Assembly (NCBI GenBank): GCA_020249125.1
Contig: JADCGG010000169.1
Coordinates: forward strand, 1-33,465
Direction: 5' to 3'
From: Roseomonas sp.
Lineage (GTDB): Bacteria; Pseudomonadota; Alphaproteobacteria; Acetobacterales; Acetobacteraceae
Length of the DNA stretch: 33,465 nucleotides
Positions 3,684 through 11,878 of this stretch are shown piece by piece (position 1 is the first letter of the stretch; each line of letters begins with the position of its first letter). Position numbers and translations under genes: made by a program. A model generated the notes under the pieces. That model worked only from the letters and a program-made list of their open reading frames with translations. It did not search any database and was not told the origin of the DNA.

Positions 3684-3921
3684 TTTCCGATCCGCTGCCT
3701 TGCTATTGACCGTTGTCGGAGCGGCATTCAGTGCTTCAGGAAGCCTCCCGCCTGCACCCGAGATGGCCAGACCCCCAATATCGCCGCGACCCTTCCGCGT
3801 TTGATGCTGGCTTGTGCTGTTGAGCGTTGGGCGATTGAACTTGACGCAATCGGGAATGATCGCTGAAACTATTCGCGCTTTGGCAACAAACTGAGGCGCT
3901 GTGGCCCCTCAAAGGCACGGA

Positions 3922-5646
3922 ATGTCAGACCTGCCCGATCAATCGCCGGAATTGAGTCGATCCCGAAAAATTCTCGCCGCGGCGGAACCCGACCCGGTCG
4001 GGGAGGTTTTTCGAGTCGAGGGCGACCGGTTGGTCATAGACCGCAGCCCAGCCGCCACCGATGCGGAAGCCTTAAACGACCCGGACCTTCAGGCGGACCA
4101 CCCGGATGCCATCGCCAAGCTTCGCACCCTGGTCGATAAAGCCCAGCGTGCCGACAACGCATTGCGCGGGACCGTTTGGCAAGACCTCCAGGACCGCGCG
4201 CAAAAGGCGCTGACTGCCATAGATTGTCCTTTGAAGGACTTGCCGGCCCGGACGCCATTGGCGCACTCGGCCTCCCTCTCGCTTGGCGTGCTTTATGACC
4301 AACTGCAACGCATGCGTAACGCACCACGAATTGGTGACGAAGCGCTGGCGCCCGAACTTGAAGTCGCGCTGATTGAGGCCTTACTGATACTCGGGCCAAT
4401 GTTGCGCATCCTTCCCGGCGGACGCCGACGCGATGGGCACATCCGGGAGTTCTTGCGACCGGGAGACCTGTCAGCTTCGGTTTCAATTAATCTTGCCTCG
4501 AAGGCGCAAGACTATCTGAAGCGGGAAGATCAGGCCTTGATGGACGGCTTGGCGCTGGATACGGGCCGGCCGGGGCCGCAGGGGGAAAAAGCCAATGGCC
4601 GATTTGTGGCCTCCATCCGCAATATGCTTTTGCCCTGTGCGGTTTCATTGCTGCTCAGCGGCTATGCGAATGAATCGCCGCTGGTGAAGCGGATCAGTCA
4701 TTTCTTCGTCAAAGTGGAAGAGGAGATCGGCACAATCGCGAGCGGTATGGCGCCCGATGTTGGTGCCGCCATCCGACATGCCGTCGATCTTTTGGCGAAG
4801 CAAACGGATGCTGGTAGTTTGCCCCAGACATCTCCACCGCCGCGCTTCCCACCCCTGGAACCCCTGGCCCGTTGGCGCGAACCCATCCCTGGCCTGCCGG
4901 AGGAAGCCTGGCCGGAGATGATCACCCTTCCCGCCGGAAAATTCCTGATGGGCGCGCCGGCGAAGGAGAAAGGCAGTAGTGACGCCGAACACCCGCAAAG
5001 TCGGGTGACCGTGCCGCAGCCTTTCGCCCTGGGGCGAACCACTGTGACCTTCGCCATGTGGGATGCGGCGGTGGCGGCGGGCTTCAAACCGCCGCGGGGC
5101 GCCGAGGCACCCGACGATCATGGTTGGGGGCGGGGCGATCGGCCGGTGATCTACGTTAATTGGCATGATGCCCAGGCCTATTGCGCTTGGCTGAACCAAA
5201 GCCTGGGGCTGCGCCCGGGCACCTATCGCCTGCCCAGTGAAGCGGAATGGGAATATGCCTGCCGGGCCGGTACCACAACGCCCTTCAGCTTTGGTGCGAC
5301 CATTTCAACCGACCAAGCGAACTATAACAGCCGTACTTATCGGCATGGCAAGCGCGGTGTCTATCGCGGACGCACCGTGCCGGTGGGCAGCCTGCCGAGG
5401 AATGACTGGGGTCTGCATGAAATGCATGGTAACGTCAAAGAATGGGTGGAGGATACTTTTAACCCATATCGCTCGGTCAGGACTGATTCAAGCCCGCGGG
5501 TAGGTGATAATGAATCATTTCGCGTTCTTCGTGGTGGATCATGGGACAACGCTCCTCTGAGCCTGCGCGCGGCGTTTCGGTACAGGGGTACGACCAGGAT
5601 TAGGGACTACTTCAACGGCTTCCGCCTCGCCAGGACGCTCGGCTAA
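3922..5646 (+). CDS. Two-part protein with C-terminal FGE/SUMF1 (C-type-lectin-like) domain; candidate DGR target
   Basis: A 574-residue protein counted from the ATG at 3922; a GTG at 3901 adds 7 residues and is about as plausible. Residues 1-320 match nothing I recognise. This part is mostly helical in appearance, with charged stretches and no signal peptide or obvious catalytic motif. Residues 330-572 form an FGE-sulfatase domain: 'LPAGKFLMGAP', 'YRLPSEAEWEYACRAGT', 'MHGNVKEWVED' (near 503) and a final 'RVLRGGSW...GFRLAR'. The C-terminal cysteines that catalytic formylglycine-generating enzymes use are absent, so a binding rather than an enzymatic role is likely. This fold is used by DGR variable proteins, and the last ~35 codons look diversified (see separate entries). 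It is flanked by 238 bases upstream and stands alone. Several AGG and GGT codons near its end are unlike the CGC/GGC-rich neighbours. Confidence 0.85.
   Translation: MSDLPDQSPELSRSRKILAAAEPDPVGEVFRVEGDRLVIDRSPAATDAEALNDPDLQADHPDAIAKLRTLVDKAQRADNALRGTVWQDLQDRAQKALTAIDCPLKDLPARTPLAHSASLSLGVLYDQLQRMRNAPRIGDEALAPELEVALIEALLILGPMLRILPGGRRRDGHIREFLRPGDLSASVSINLASKAQDYLKREDQALMDGLALDTGRPGPQGEKANGRFVASIRNMLLPCAVSLLLSGYANESPLVKRISHFFVKVEEEIGTIASGMAPDVGAAIRHAVDLLAKQTDAGSLPQTSPPPRFPPLEPLARWREPIPGLPEEAWPEMITLPAGKFLMGAPAKEKGSSDAEHPQSRVTVPQPFALGRTTVTFAMWDAAVAAGFKPPRGAEAPDDHGWGRGDRPVIYVNWHDAQAYCAWLNQSLGLRPGTYRLPSEAEWEYACRAGTTTPFSFGATISTDQANYNSRTYRHGKRGVYRGRTVPVGSLPRNDWGLHEMHGNVKEWVEDTFNPYRSVRTDSSPRVGDNESFRVLRGGSWDNAPLSLRAAFRYRGTTRIRDYFNGFRLARTLG
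5521..5646 (+). other. Candidate DGR variable region (VR) at the 3' end of the FGE-domain gene
   Basis: The segment starts at the RVLRGGSW motif and ends at the stop codon. At the places where FGE-type DGR templates usually encode Asn (AAY), this gene has D, N, A, S, F, Y, G, I, D, Y, F, N (residues 542, 543, 544, 547, 552, 554, 556, 560, 562, 563, 564, 565). Every one of these codons is NNY (gac, aac, gct, agc, ttt, tac, ggt, att, gac, tac, ttc, aac). That is what adenine mutagenesis of AAC/AAT codons would give. The intervening framework (W, P, L, R, T, GFR) is conserved. Against it: several framework adenines (four AGG codons, ACG, ACC) look unmutated, and no template repeat or reverse transcriptase lies in the window. 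Confidence 0.45.
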
Positions 5647-5654
5647 GGCCGAGC
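5637..5654 (+). repeat. Perfect 7-bp inverted repeat with 4-base loop across the stop codon
   Basis: GCTCGGC (5637-5643), loop TAAG (5644-5647), GCCGAGC (5648-5654). The loop contains the TAA stop of the FGE-domain gene. No T-run follows, so it is a poor intrinsic terminator. DGRs are known to carry a GC-rich hairpin or cruciform with a 7-10 bp stem and 4-base loop just after the variable region, where it helps target recognition. Position and size fit; the loop sequence does not match the GRNA consensus I recall. Confidence 0.6.
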
Positions 5655-5694
5655 TTACCGCCTGAATCTTCGCCTCTTTACCTCTTGGGTGGGT

Positions 5695-5719
5695 CCAGGG
5701 AGGGCGCAGCCCTCCCTGG
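5695..5719. repeat. Perfect 10-bp inverted repeat between convergent genes
   Basis: CCAGGGAGGG (5695-5704), 5-base loop CGCAG, CCCTCCCTGG (5710-5719). It sits between the convergent ends of the FGE-domain gene (stop at 5646) and the AhpD-like gene (stop at 5861), so it could end transcription from both sides. It lacks a following T-run, so Rho assistance or a dispersed palindromic repeat are alternatives. The rest of the 5647-5860 interval shows no gene. Confidence 0.6.
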
Positions 5720-5860
5720 TCGCCGGCCCAACGCCCGCCTCATGCGCCTGCGCGGCAGGCGGCGCTATCTGGTCATTCCCATGGTGTCTGCGCGCCCGGC
5801 CGCAACGCGCAGGAAGTGCTTGAACCCGCCATTTCCGCCGCGCGATTGTGCCAAGGCGCC

Positions 5861-9563: not shown

Positions 9564-10919
9564 ATGGGCATGACCCAAGCCGCCGAAGCGCCGGAATCCG
9601 GCCTGCTCGCCTATGCCAGCGCCAATCTGCCGCGCTACACCAGCTATCCAACCGCGCCGCATTTCACGCCGCTTGAAGAAGCGCGGCTCAGGGAATGGCT
9701 GGCCGAAATCACGCCTCATGATGCGCTATCGCTTTACGTGCATGTGCCGTTTTGCGCCGCGCTTTGCTGGTATTGCGGCTGCCATACGGCGGTGACGCGC
9801 TCTGCCGCGCGGATCGCGCGGTATGGCGCGGGTTTGGCTGAAGAAGCGCGGCTTTTGGGTGCGGTGCTGCCCGCCCATGGTGGCGTGGCGGCTTTGCATC
9901 TGGGCGGCGGCACGCCAACCGCCTTGGGGTCTGCGGGGTTGATCGCCCTCGGCAACGCCTTGCGTCAGCATTTCCCCTTTCAGCCCGGTGCTGAAATCGC
10001 CGCCGAGCTTGATCCGCGCACGCTGGATACGCGCATGATTGATGCGCTGGCAGGCATGGGCCTGACGCGCGCGAGCCTTGGCGTGCAGGATATCTCGCCC
10101 AAGGTGCAGCGCCTGATTGGGCGTGTGCAGCCGGCCGAACAGGTGGCGGTTGCCGTTGAAAGGCTGCGCGGCGCCGGCATTGGCGGGATCAATATGGATT
10201 TGATTTATGGCCTGCCGGGGCAGGGCGTGGCGGAGGTTGAAGCCTCGGCCCGCTTCGCCGCGGAACATGGCGCGGATCGGGTGGCGGTGTTTGGCTACGC
10301 GCATGTGCCCTGGATGAAATCACACCAGAAGGCGATCAAGCTGGAAGATTTGCCGGATGCGCCCTTGCGGATGGCGCAGGCGGAAGCGGCGGCGCGCGTG
10401 CTGAATGATGCGGGTTATGTCGCGATTGGGCTTGATCACTTCGCGCGGCCCGAAGATACCATGGCGCGTGCCGCGGCGTCCGGCAGGCTACGCCGCAATT
10501 TCCAAGGCTATACCACGGATGAAGCGCCGGTCTTGCTTGGCCTTGGCGCTTCGGCGATTGGCCGCTGCCGCGCCGGTTTCTTCCAGAATAACGCGGATGA
10601 GCGCGGCTGGCTGGCGGCGGTGGAAGCCGGGCGGTTGCCGATTGCGCGCGGGCGCGGCTTCAGCGGCGAAGATGTGGCGCGCGCCAACATTATTGAACGC
10701 ATCATGTGCGATCAGGCATTGGATCTTGCGCTGGTGCCGCCGGAAATCCTGGCAAGCGCACGCCCCAAGCTTGCAGCGCTGATCGCCGATGGCCTGGTGG
10801 TGGAAGGTGGCGGGCGGCTTGCGATGACCGAAACGGGGGCGCGCTTCCTGCGGCATTTGGCCGCGTGCTTCGATGCCTATTTGGCGCCCGCTGCCACGCG
10901 CCATAGCGCCGCCGTTTAG
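9564..10919 (+). CDS. hemN: Oxygen-independent coproporphyrinogen III oxidase
   Basis: A radical-SAM enzyme that decarboxylates coproporphyrinogen III to protoporphyrinogen IX in anaerobic heme synthesis. The 'RYTSYPTAPHF' motif near the N-terminus and the cluster-binding C-x3-C-x2-C-x-C in 'FCAALCWYCGCHT' mark true HemN rather than HemW: C62, C66, C69 and C71 counted from the second ATG at 9570. The length of about 450 residues matches the family (E. coli about 457). Start choice: an in-frame TTG at 9522 would run through the terminator stem, so ATG 9564 or 9570 is preferred. Neither has a good ribosome site, suggesting a very short or leaderless transcript. No FNR-type palindrome was seen upstream. 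It converges with the next gene, the stop codons overlapping by 4 bases. Confidence 0.9.
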   Translation: MGMTQAAEAPESGLLAYASANLPRYTSYPTAPHFTPLEEARLREWLAEITPHDALSLYVHVPFCAALCWYCGCHTAVTRSAARIARYGAGLAEEARLLGAVLPAHGGVAALHLGGGTPTALGSAGLIALGNALRQHFPFQPGAEIAAELDPRTLDTRMIDALAGMGLTRASLGVQDISPKVQRLIGRVQPAEQVAVAVERLRGAGIGGINMDLIYGLPGQGVAEVEASARFAAEHGADRVAVFGYAHVPWMKSHQKAIKLEDLPDAPLRMAQAEAAARVLNDAGYVAIGLDHFARPEDTMARAAASGRLRRNFQGYTTDEAPVLLGLGASAIGRCRAGFFQNNADERGWLAAVEAGRLPIARGRGFSGEDVARANIIERIMCDQALDLALVPPEILASARPKLAALIADGLVVEGGGRLAMTETGARFLRHLAACFDAYLAPAATRHSAAV

Positions 10920-11878
10920 GCGGGGGCCAGATTCAATCGCCGCAGCAGGGCGCGTTCTTCATCCATGGTCTGGCGCATCGCCTCCCGATAGGCAGGGCCA
11001 TCCAACAGGATCAGCGGCTGATTGACGCGTTCCAGGAATTGCACATGGGCGGGGTCTTGTGCTGCGGCAGTGAAAGCCTCCGCCAATATGCGCACCACGC
11101 CGGCATCCATCCCGCGCGGGCCGATCAAGCCGCCCGGACTATCCACCACAATATCCAAGCCCTGTTCTTTCAGTGTCGCCACCTGCGGAAAACGCTTGGC
11201 GCGGGTGGAGGTATAAATCGCGAGCAAGCGCAATTGCCCCGCTTCCAACATAGGCGCCCAGCCGGATGCCTCTGACGCGAAATCAATCTCGCCGCCCAGC
11301 AGCGCGCGTAATGTGTCGGAGGTGCCGCGATAGGGCACATGCGTCCAGCTCAAGCCCCGCTGAAAGCCGATGCGTTCCACCACCAGATGCTGCGTGGAGC
11401 CAATGCCAAGCGTGCCGAAATTGAGCTTGCCCGGATTGGCGCGGGCATGGGCCAGTAATTGTTCAAGGCTCTGCCAGGGGGAATCAGCGCGGACCACAAG
11501 CCCCATGACGAAGCCGGTAATTTGCAGGATATAGGTCACATCATTTATCGGATCATAGGGCGGGCGCGGGTTCAGCAGCATTTGCCGCACCACGCCGACA
11601 TGCATTTGCGAAATCGTATAGCCGTCGGGCCGCGCTTCCTGCAGCGCCATCGCCCCCAGAATGCCGGAAGCGCCGCCGCGATTTTCCACCACCACCGGCT
11701 GGCCCAGGCTGCGCGATGCATGGTCTGCCATGATACGAAAGCCGATATCCGCCGGCCCGCCCGCCGCCCAGGGAATGATCAGCTTGATCGGCCTATCCGG
11801 GAAACGCGGTTGCGCCAGCGCGGGCATGGCGAGCAATGCTGAAGCGCCAAGCGCCGCGCGTCGGGTGATTTGCGCCAT
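10916..11878 (-). CDS. Bug/TctC-family tripartite tricarboxylate transporter substrate-binding protein
   Basis: A 320-residue periplasmic receptor. The ATG at 11878 is preceded by GGAGG at good spacing. It opens a twin-arginine leader 'MAQITRRAALGASALLAMPALA' followed by the mature start 'QPRFPDRPIKLIIPWAAGG'. The Bug signature 'AAGGPADIGFRIMAD', 'VVVENRGGASGILG', 'LNFGTLGIGSTQHL' and 'VPYRGTSDTLRALLGGEID' is complete. Members bind small carboxylates or related organics for TctA/TctB membrane partners. No tctA or tctB is present anywhere in the window, so it is an orphan receptor, as is common in bacteria with many Bug paralogs. The ligand is unknown. Confidence 0.9.
   Translation of the reverse strand: MAQITRRAALGASALLAMPALAQPRFPDRPIKLIIPWAAGGPADIGFRIMADHASRSLGQPVVVENRGGASGILGAMALQEARPDGYTISQMHVGVVRQMLLNPRPPYDPINDVTYILQITGFVMGLVVRADSPWQSLEQLLAHARANPGKLNFGTLGIGSTQHLVVERIGFQRGLSWTHVPYRGTSDTLRALLGGEIDFASEASGWAPMLEAGQLRLLAIYTSTRAKRFPQVATLKEQGLDIVVDSPGGLIGPRGMDAGVVRILAEAFTAAAQDPAHVQFLERVNQPLILLDGPAYREAMRQTMDEERALLRRLNLAPA

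Follow-up and report, generated by a model that had tools for sequence, protein, structure and literature searches.

The window, i.e. the whole stretch of 33,465 bp analysed here, is contig C78 of a lake Roseomonas-type draft genome (3.53 Mb in 323 contigs, 93.3% complete). In a search for relatives (79 loci), the closest named ones among the best 80 of 110 are metagenome-assembled genomes (MAGs) labelled Roseomonas or Acetobacteraceae. The plus strand has a protein-coding gene at positions 3901–5646, with a listed GTG start, whose 581-amino-acid product consists of a predicted helical N-terminal module and a C-terminal formylglycine-generating enzyme (FGE)/C-type-lectin domain. The end of this domain displays the anatomy of a variable repeat (VR), the type of sequence that is diversified by a diversity-generating retroelement (DGR). 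In the most likely reading, a DGR of an ancestor or donor wrote the repeat, which has since been orphaned, and the gene product is a putative sensor of a conflict system.

The gene and its C-terminal repeat

A single Pfam domain is found in the protein, FGE-sulfatase (PF03781, E 6.8e-53), at residues 338–578 (positions 4912–5634). Among solved structures searched with phmmer, PvdO is the best relative by sequence (E 1.5e-33), and the DGR variable protein TvpA (2y3c) is matched at E 1.6e-15. The PvdO match would accord with a working FGE-type enzyme, sulfatase or PvdO-like, whose variability reflects differing substrates, but such an enzyme is very improbable here. The catalytic Cys pair of formylglycine-generating enzymes sits in the C-terminal segment, and residues 541–581 have no Cys, as the original prediction had it. 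In addition, the NCBIfam PvdO score of 154 is far below the cut-off of 500.

The N-terminal module (∼325 amino acids, 3901–4875) matches no Pfam family, and a PDB sequence search gives E 0.29 at best. It is helical by low-confidence prediction, and the fold is poorly modelled by AlphaFold (mean predicted local distance difference test score 49.8). The earlier description of ∼320 unrecognised residues holds as far as Pfam is concerned, with the amendment that this is one of several interchangeable modules and has homologues in two other species (G007 and G015).

The 5′ edge of the VR encodes RVLRGGSW (5521–5544), and the repeat comprises 28 codons from W to GFR (84 bases, 5542–5625). Within it are twelve codons, starting at 5545, 5548, 5551, 5560, 5575, 5581, 5587, 5599, 5605, 5608, 5611 and 5614, which read, in order, GAC, AAC, GCT, AGC, TTT, TAC, GGT, ATT, GAC, TAC, TTC and AAC. 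All twelve are of the form NNY, where Y is a pyrimidine, and ten encode residues other than Asn, of seven kinds (D, A, S, F, Y, G, I). The letters and reading frame are thus those originally given; the weight placed on the NNY form does not hold up. Control FGE C-termini (n = 23; 6 from group A and 17 from group C, two groups compared below) have a mean of 81% NNY at these positions, and none reaches 12 of 12, whereas seven of nine C-termini from DGR loci do so, the other two having 8 of 12. NNY codons were accordingly discarded as stand-alone proof, and 12/12 NNY alone is weak evidence.

Codon-confined variability and DGR templates

Window-type genes, termed group B, are present in genomes G005, G007, G015, G031 and G033 and in two more Acetobacteraceae MAGs (69% and 80% complete); in the pairwise identity table the group also takes in the more distant G025. 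Across eight group B genes, the twelve codons are 8.0% identical at the amino acid level, versus 73.6% over 226 upstream domain columns (Mann-Whitney p 1.5e-9). The most conserved of the twelve codons is matched in variability by 15 of the 226 columns. One pair, G007 and G031, shares nine of the twelve and is not fully divergent. Variability confined to the twelve codons is clearly above chance among these relatives. The substitutions are concentrated there and not evenly spread, which is the pattern that the original prediction had called for in orthologs. They fall at codons of which eleven in twelve are Asn codons in the foreign template of locus L307 (see below), and the 16 framework codons vary too (54.0% identity). 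In group A, a paralogous FGE family in the genus (6 genes), the same positions are 72.8% identical and the domain 80.6%; in group C (12 genes) the values are 74.2% and 72.5%.

If the twelve codons are derived from AAY, the first two bases are expected to be random and the third base conserved. The twelve codons of group B have identities of 0.29, 0.25 and 0.51 at the first, second and third base, versus 0.39, 0.44 and 0.41 in 27 other fast domain columns. C-termini from DGR loci, compared between loci, give 0.27, 0.32 and 0.69, and group A gives 0.79, 0.81 and 0.72. Sets picked for 12/12 NNY have a third-base identity of 0.82, a value that is partly circular. The pattern is strong in five repeat copies of a Pseudomonadales chromosome (0.35, 0.40 and 0.875). 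Substrate specialisation of a working enzyme alone would not preserve third bases while randomising the first two.

The Pseudomonadales chromosome, from a MAG (G351; OY282519.1, 3.83 Mb), has the repeat of locus L077 and five further copies at 74–85% identity. Among the five closest copies, 30 of 84 columns vary: 14 are first, 12 second and 4 third codon positions. At least one copy has an A in 23 of these columns, and seven lack A altogether. Changes at adenines are also seen in several framework codons (AGG to GGG or TGG, ACC to TCC, CCC or GCC, and ATC to GTC). No template is recognised by reading among the six copies, all of which lie in long FGE frames. The record was searched with profile A3, which was built from four DGR-type reverse transcriptases (RTs) collected in this analysis. 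With all 33 candidates scored, it has one RT (E 2.5e-5), assigned to UG13 by PADLOC (1.5e-76), and no DGR RT, other replicons of the MAG being perhaps missing. Repeats of the same class as that of the window are therefore found where no DGR has been detected. Of the six FGE proteins with diversified C-termini in this chromosome (loci L333, L334, L335 and L337), four carry, by reading, caspase-like motifs in front. Clusters of four to six VR-type FGE C-termini within ∼20 kb are found in a planctomycete (L110), a Magnetococcales MAG (L094) and Thiothrix (L130), with no clear template in the fetched flanks.

Sixteen template-like repeats were collected, and the 12 that have a same-locus VR with at most one non-adenine mismatch are termed true DGRs. 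The best template match of the window is L307, a template that adjoins a DGR RT (profile A3, E 8.9e-91); no VR is found in the 2,431 bases fetched of this locus. The L307 template reads WNNNPRNLRAANRNRNTTGNRNNNAGFR and the window WDNAPLSLRAAFRYRGTTRIRDYFNGFR. Fourteen of 17 framework residues are identical between the two, versus a maximum of 0.71 (12/17) among 21 control FGEs, each taken at the best of 13 templates. Eleven of the twelve variable positions are Asn codons in the L307 template, and the bases agree at 43 of 56 non-A sites and at 11 of 28 A sites. At the base level, the window matches templates no better than group C does, but better than group A, and only the framework amino acids single it out.

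Elements behind the variable repeat

The VR is followed at 5629–5639 by a motif that resembles the initiation of mutagenic homing (IMH) site of DGRs. It has the VR form, GCCAGGACGCT, as do the VR ends of the true alphaproteobacterial DGRs L146 and L305; the VR ends are GCCCGGACGCT in L306 and TCCAGAACACC in L147. The corresponding template ends are GCCAGCACGC in L146, L305 and L307, TCCAGCACGC in L147 and GCCCGCACGC in L306. By sequence, and in comparison with these foreign templates, the window has the IMH and not the IMH* form.

Overlapping this motif is a hairpin, GCTCGGC-TAAG-GCCGAGC (5637–5654), with a 7 bp stem and a 4 nt loop that has the stop codon (5644–5646) inside it. An 18 nt stretch that contains six of the seven pairs has a DNA folding energy of −7.0 kcal/mol, and none of 200 shuffled sequences is as low. 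Published DGR hairpins have a GC-rich stem of 7–10 bp and a 4 nt GRNA loop and are situated 4–34 bp after the VR (PMC3240598, in excerpt). The stem, loop length and position in the window fit this description but the loop sequence, TAAG, does not, so that the hairpin at the end of the candidate region resembles those of known DGRs, as originally predicted, only in part. By reading, the true VR of L305 leads into an 8 bp stem whose GGTA loop overlaps the stop codon, then TTACC, then a pyrimidine tract and finally a further hairpin; the elements in the 3′ flank of the window are in the same order.

A pyrimidine-rich motif of 23 nt, CTGAATCTTCGCCTCTTTACCTC, is found after the stop codon (5662–5684). 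Similar stretches lie behind the VRs of the true DGRs L306, L147 and L146 and behind the repeats of G351. In a scan of 5.19 million positions of fetched loci, which are enriched in FGE genes and give a biased census, 14 other distinct matches with no more than six mismatches were found. Twelve of the 14 are right behind an FGE C-terminus (11 flagged, and L165 by reading); L235 and L280 are not. Three of these twelve are true DGR VRs, L306 with three mismatches and L146 and L147 with six. L165 (minus strand, near position 794) has an FGE C-terminus of the Acetobacteraceae family with a similar post-stop motif. The letters directly behind it look like what we take to be the start of a group II intron, which could explain why the RT search fetched this locus.

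The second hairpin in the window (5695–5719) has 11 bp and a GCA loop. Its place is like that of the hairpin behind true DGR VRs. The sequence GGTCCAGGGAGGGCGCAGCCCTCCCTGG, at 5687–5720, is also a dispersed terminator-like element of the genus. The second hairpin was considered as a DGR-specific element; the case is weakened, as it recurs in the genus without the remaining elements.

Reverse transcriptases, templates and origin of the repeat

No RT is listed within the window and no template repeat is seen there, as in the original prediction, and none of DGR type was found in the assembly either. The assembly has two RTs by RVT_1 match, both rejected as DGR RTs. The first (L001, contig C94) is a type IX retron RT (PADLOC RT_IX, E 6.2e-129) adjoining an HTH/HEPN_IX protein. 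The second (L002, C139) has QGAPTSP in place of the SQ motif that marks DGR RTs. With profile A3, only the retron is reported (4.7e-7; six of 28 first-look candidates scored). The retron lies at L001:20–2226 (G000:C94), and a very similar RT is found, by reading, in G005 (L060). A blastn comparison of 5501–5660 with the assembly returns only the query itself, the next best match being 25 bp. The template form of the homing motif has no match in the genome at up to three mismatches and is absent also from G005, G007, G015, G025, G031 and G033. A genome search for a near-copy of the repeat and for a DGR-type RT had been proposed, with the absence of both from a complete genome counting against an orphan target; neither was found, in a draft that is 93% complete.

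The genus gives a similar picture. RVT_1 matches are found at 11 places in nine of 35 genomes, and none of the ten places with a readable motif is of DGR type (the motif of L066 is unreadable). RVT_1 finds nothing in the group B genomes G007 and G015 or in their relative G025, all three of them ∼99% complete, and one non-DGR match in each of G005, G031 and G033. The template-form motif has eight matches, all with three mismatches, in seven of the 35 genomes, none of them group B genomes. In a sample of 299 genomes of the family, 56 match profile A3, two of them (G213 and G267) below 1e-90 and the other 54 at weaker values. An open frame of 1671 amino acids in L059 (G024:C73) contains an RT that reads like a eukaryotic element lacking long terminal repeats, perhaps an assembly contamination.

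Could the repeat still be diversified in trans, by a DGR on DNA outside the assembly (in the unassembled 7%, on a plasmid or in a phage), or else by DGRs that are mobile within the population? The 12/12 NNY codons, the 323 contigs of an incomplete assembly and the two family genomes with RTs below 1e-90 would be compatible with it. Excerpts of two papers provide parallels: trans action was inferred as the best explanation of some VRs in Thiohalocapsa PB-PSB1 (PMC10907252), and cyanobacteria have remote variable proteins (PMC7517822). On the other hand, the non-DGR nature of all readable RTs in the genus, the absence of RVT_1 matches from the nearly complete G007, G015 and G025, the single non-DGR match in each of G005, G031 and G033, and the lack of a template-type motif in these genomes and in the window's own make continued action in trans unlikely. 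Viral contigs, scanned once with the FGE alignment and once with a single exact template-like pattern, likewise gave nothing. A phage origin of the gene was rejected on the same scans and on the 19 phage records that match, all at less than 60% identity.

Past DGR activity followed by orphaning is probably the better account. The original prediction of an orphan DGR target, the element being lost or distant, gains support from the codon-confined hypervariability, the third-base signature, the L307 framework match, the VR-form homing motif, the post-stop motif and the six repeats of G351. In the proposed course of events, an ancestral or donor DGR RT would have copied a template with AAY codons at about twelve positions, misreading adenines, and the mutated complementary DNA would have homed in at the GCCAGGACGCT/hairpin site. 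RT and template may later have been lost, or the gene or a cassette acquired without them, and the window repeat would now be fixed and drifting slowly. DGR-diversified conflict systems offer an analogy in which an invader or a surface ligand may be recognised by the lectin tip, with the N-terminal module as the part that would signal or act. We thus infer past adenine mutagenesis of the repeat, loss of the element and a sensor function, the latter from an architecture comparable to that of conflict systems described in PMC7159879 and PMC10907252 (both in excerpt).

Several observations count against this account. There is the 81% NNY baseline of control FGEs, and the sister genes have drifted from strict NNY, with 8–11 of the twelve codons in this form and a framework identity of 54%. 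Within group B by itself, the excess at third bases is modest (0.51 vs 0.41). The framework match of eight other group B genes, G025 included, ranges from 0.44 to 0.82, so that not all sisters stand out. At the base level, with the best of 13 templates, the non-A mismatch of the window is 0.23, versus means of 0.26 in group C and 0.32 in group A, and third-base agreement is 0.64, versus 0.69 and 0.47. When five foreign templates are used, the window is not set apart from controls by its surplus of A-site mismatches (for L183, window 2.2×, group A 2.0×, group C 3.0×); this comparison was set aside as uninformative for DGR action. As the assembly yielded neither a DGR RT nor a template, adenine specificity of the window repeat is not directly readable. 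As to the 3′ elements, the hairpin loop TAAG departs from the GRNA consensus, and here the predicted likeness to known DGRs fails. The second hairpin has a GCA loop, versus GAA or GGA in the true targets L146, L147, L305 and L306, and it is not particular to this locus: within the genus, a query of 5600–5745 has matches in 23 of 35 genomes, mostly in this part. Finally, the true DGR targets L182 and L183 of the window's own family group in the FGE tree with control group C (support 96/99), which means that group C is itself kin to DGR targets.

The NNY baseline, the non-NNY codons and changed frameworks of several sisters, and the failure of base-level comparison with foreign templates would also fit a protein of the FGE fold that has simply been shaped by recombination and strong diversifying selection, never a DGR target in this lineage. 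Such an origin is nevertheless improbable: third bases are conserved while the first two are randomised, the VR-form homing motif and the 23 nt post-stop motif are shared with true DGR targets, the framework matches a template that adjoins a DGR RT (L307), and same-genus paralog families lack such variation at these codons.

In the FGE tree (52 rows; the support mark of the tool is 95/80), one clade of 32 rows unites eight group B genes, 18 of the 21 DGR rows and six further rows; its support of 88/90 is below the mark. The third DGR row outside the clade, besides L182 and L183, is L103_DGR1, a template frame on a very long branch. Within group B and its relatives, the FGE domain is joined to different N-terminal modules. 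A module like that of the window is found in G007 and G015, with a further N-terminal extension; a pentapeptide module in L070 (PF00805, 2.3e-5) and, by reading, in G005 and G033; and a helical-looking module in G031. Caspase (PF00656) fusions are found in L072 (4.2e-17) and G025 (5.9e-21). Candidate effector modules of a DGR-linked conflict system are the caspases in two relatives and, by reading, the caspase-like motifs of the four G351 targets; the module in the window has no Pfam match.

The G025 gene differs in that its FGE domain groups with the non-variable group A (94/86). Over 113 bp, which begin at the VR end and take in the noncoding flank, its DNA shares 86% identity with the window, versus 57% for the FGE coding DNA. 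This pattern suggests that the 3′ end was transferred as a cassette. The G025 gene would fit a more speculative reading, in which these bacteria maintain hypervariable sensors although they have no DGR of their own: cassettes that combine VR, homing site and 3′ flank in a single unit would be written by DGRs elsewhere and reach unrelated FGE scaffolds and effector modules through recombination. Such spread is conceivable and at present rather doubtful.

DGR variable proteins are already known as a kind; the present form departs from it in being orphaned, in swapping modules and in having no DGR detected. Treponema denticola TvpA (PDB 2y3c), a variable protein of the FGE/C-type-lectin class, has the same domain and a C-terminal VR; the window differs from it in the lack of a found RT or template in the genome, the non-GRNA loop and the uncharacterised N-terminal module. 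With the alphaproteobacterial loci the window shares framework residues (L307), GCCAGGACGCT (L146, L305), the stop-codon hairpin (L305) and the post-stop motif (L306, L146, L147). Unlike the window, L305, L306, L307, L146 and L147 have their own RT and template, and the four with a VR have GGA or GAA in the second-hairpin loop. As far as excerpts of the papers go, Thiohalocapsa PB-PSB1 (PMC10907252) and the VMAP ternary systems (PMC7159879) likewise have a C-terminal lectin/FGE sensor on interchangeable modules, with caspases among those of the window's relatives. They differ in that no STAND, vWA or MoxR domain is found by Pfam in the five window frames scanned, no DGR was found, and the module in the window has no known effector domain. 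The cyanobacterial remote variable proteins (PMC7517822, in excerpt) are also encoded apart from the DGR locus, as C-type-lectin genes with a VR, but in their case the genome itself holds a DGR with template similarity, while none was found in the genome of the window. A literature search, with subscription papers mostly outside its scope, gave no description of the present case, whether for Roseomonas, for a metacaspase or for orphan variable repeats. The term 'orphan' bears another sense in PMC4372165, in the part of that source consulted.

DGR searches usually begin from the RT, and orphan targets are therefore easily missed. The 3′ signature, consisting of GCCAGGACGCT, the stop-codon hairpin and the pyrimidine-rich motif, offers a route to such targets without an RT. 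A genus with hypervariable sensors but no detected DGR, together with a chromosome that has six diversified repeats and in which no DGR RT was found, allows a test of whether the diversity made by a DGR persists after the element is gone, arises by action in trans between replicons or moves in the form of cassettes.

Two minor observations concern the gene neighbourhood and the assembly. When ten other window frames, not all of which are genes, were compared with 12 stretches of group B genomes and G025, only paralogous-looking matches of frame 10916–11878 and one weak match were obtained. The genome's own group A FGE gene (L181, G000:C241:2329–3013) matches in two overlapping pieces, which indicates a frameshift or an assembly error.

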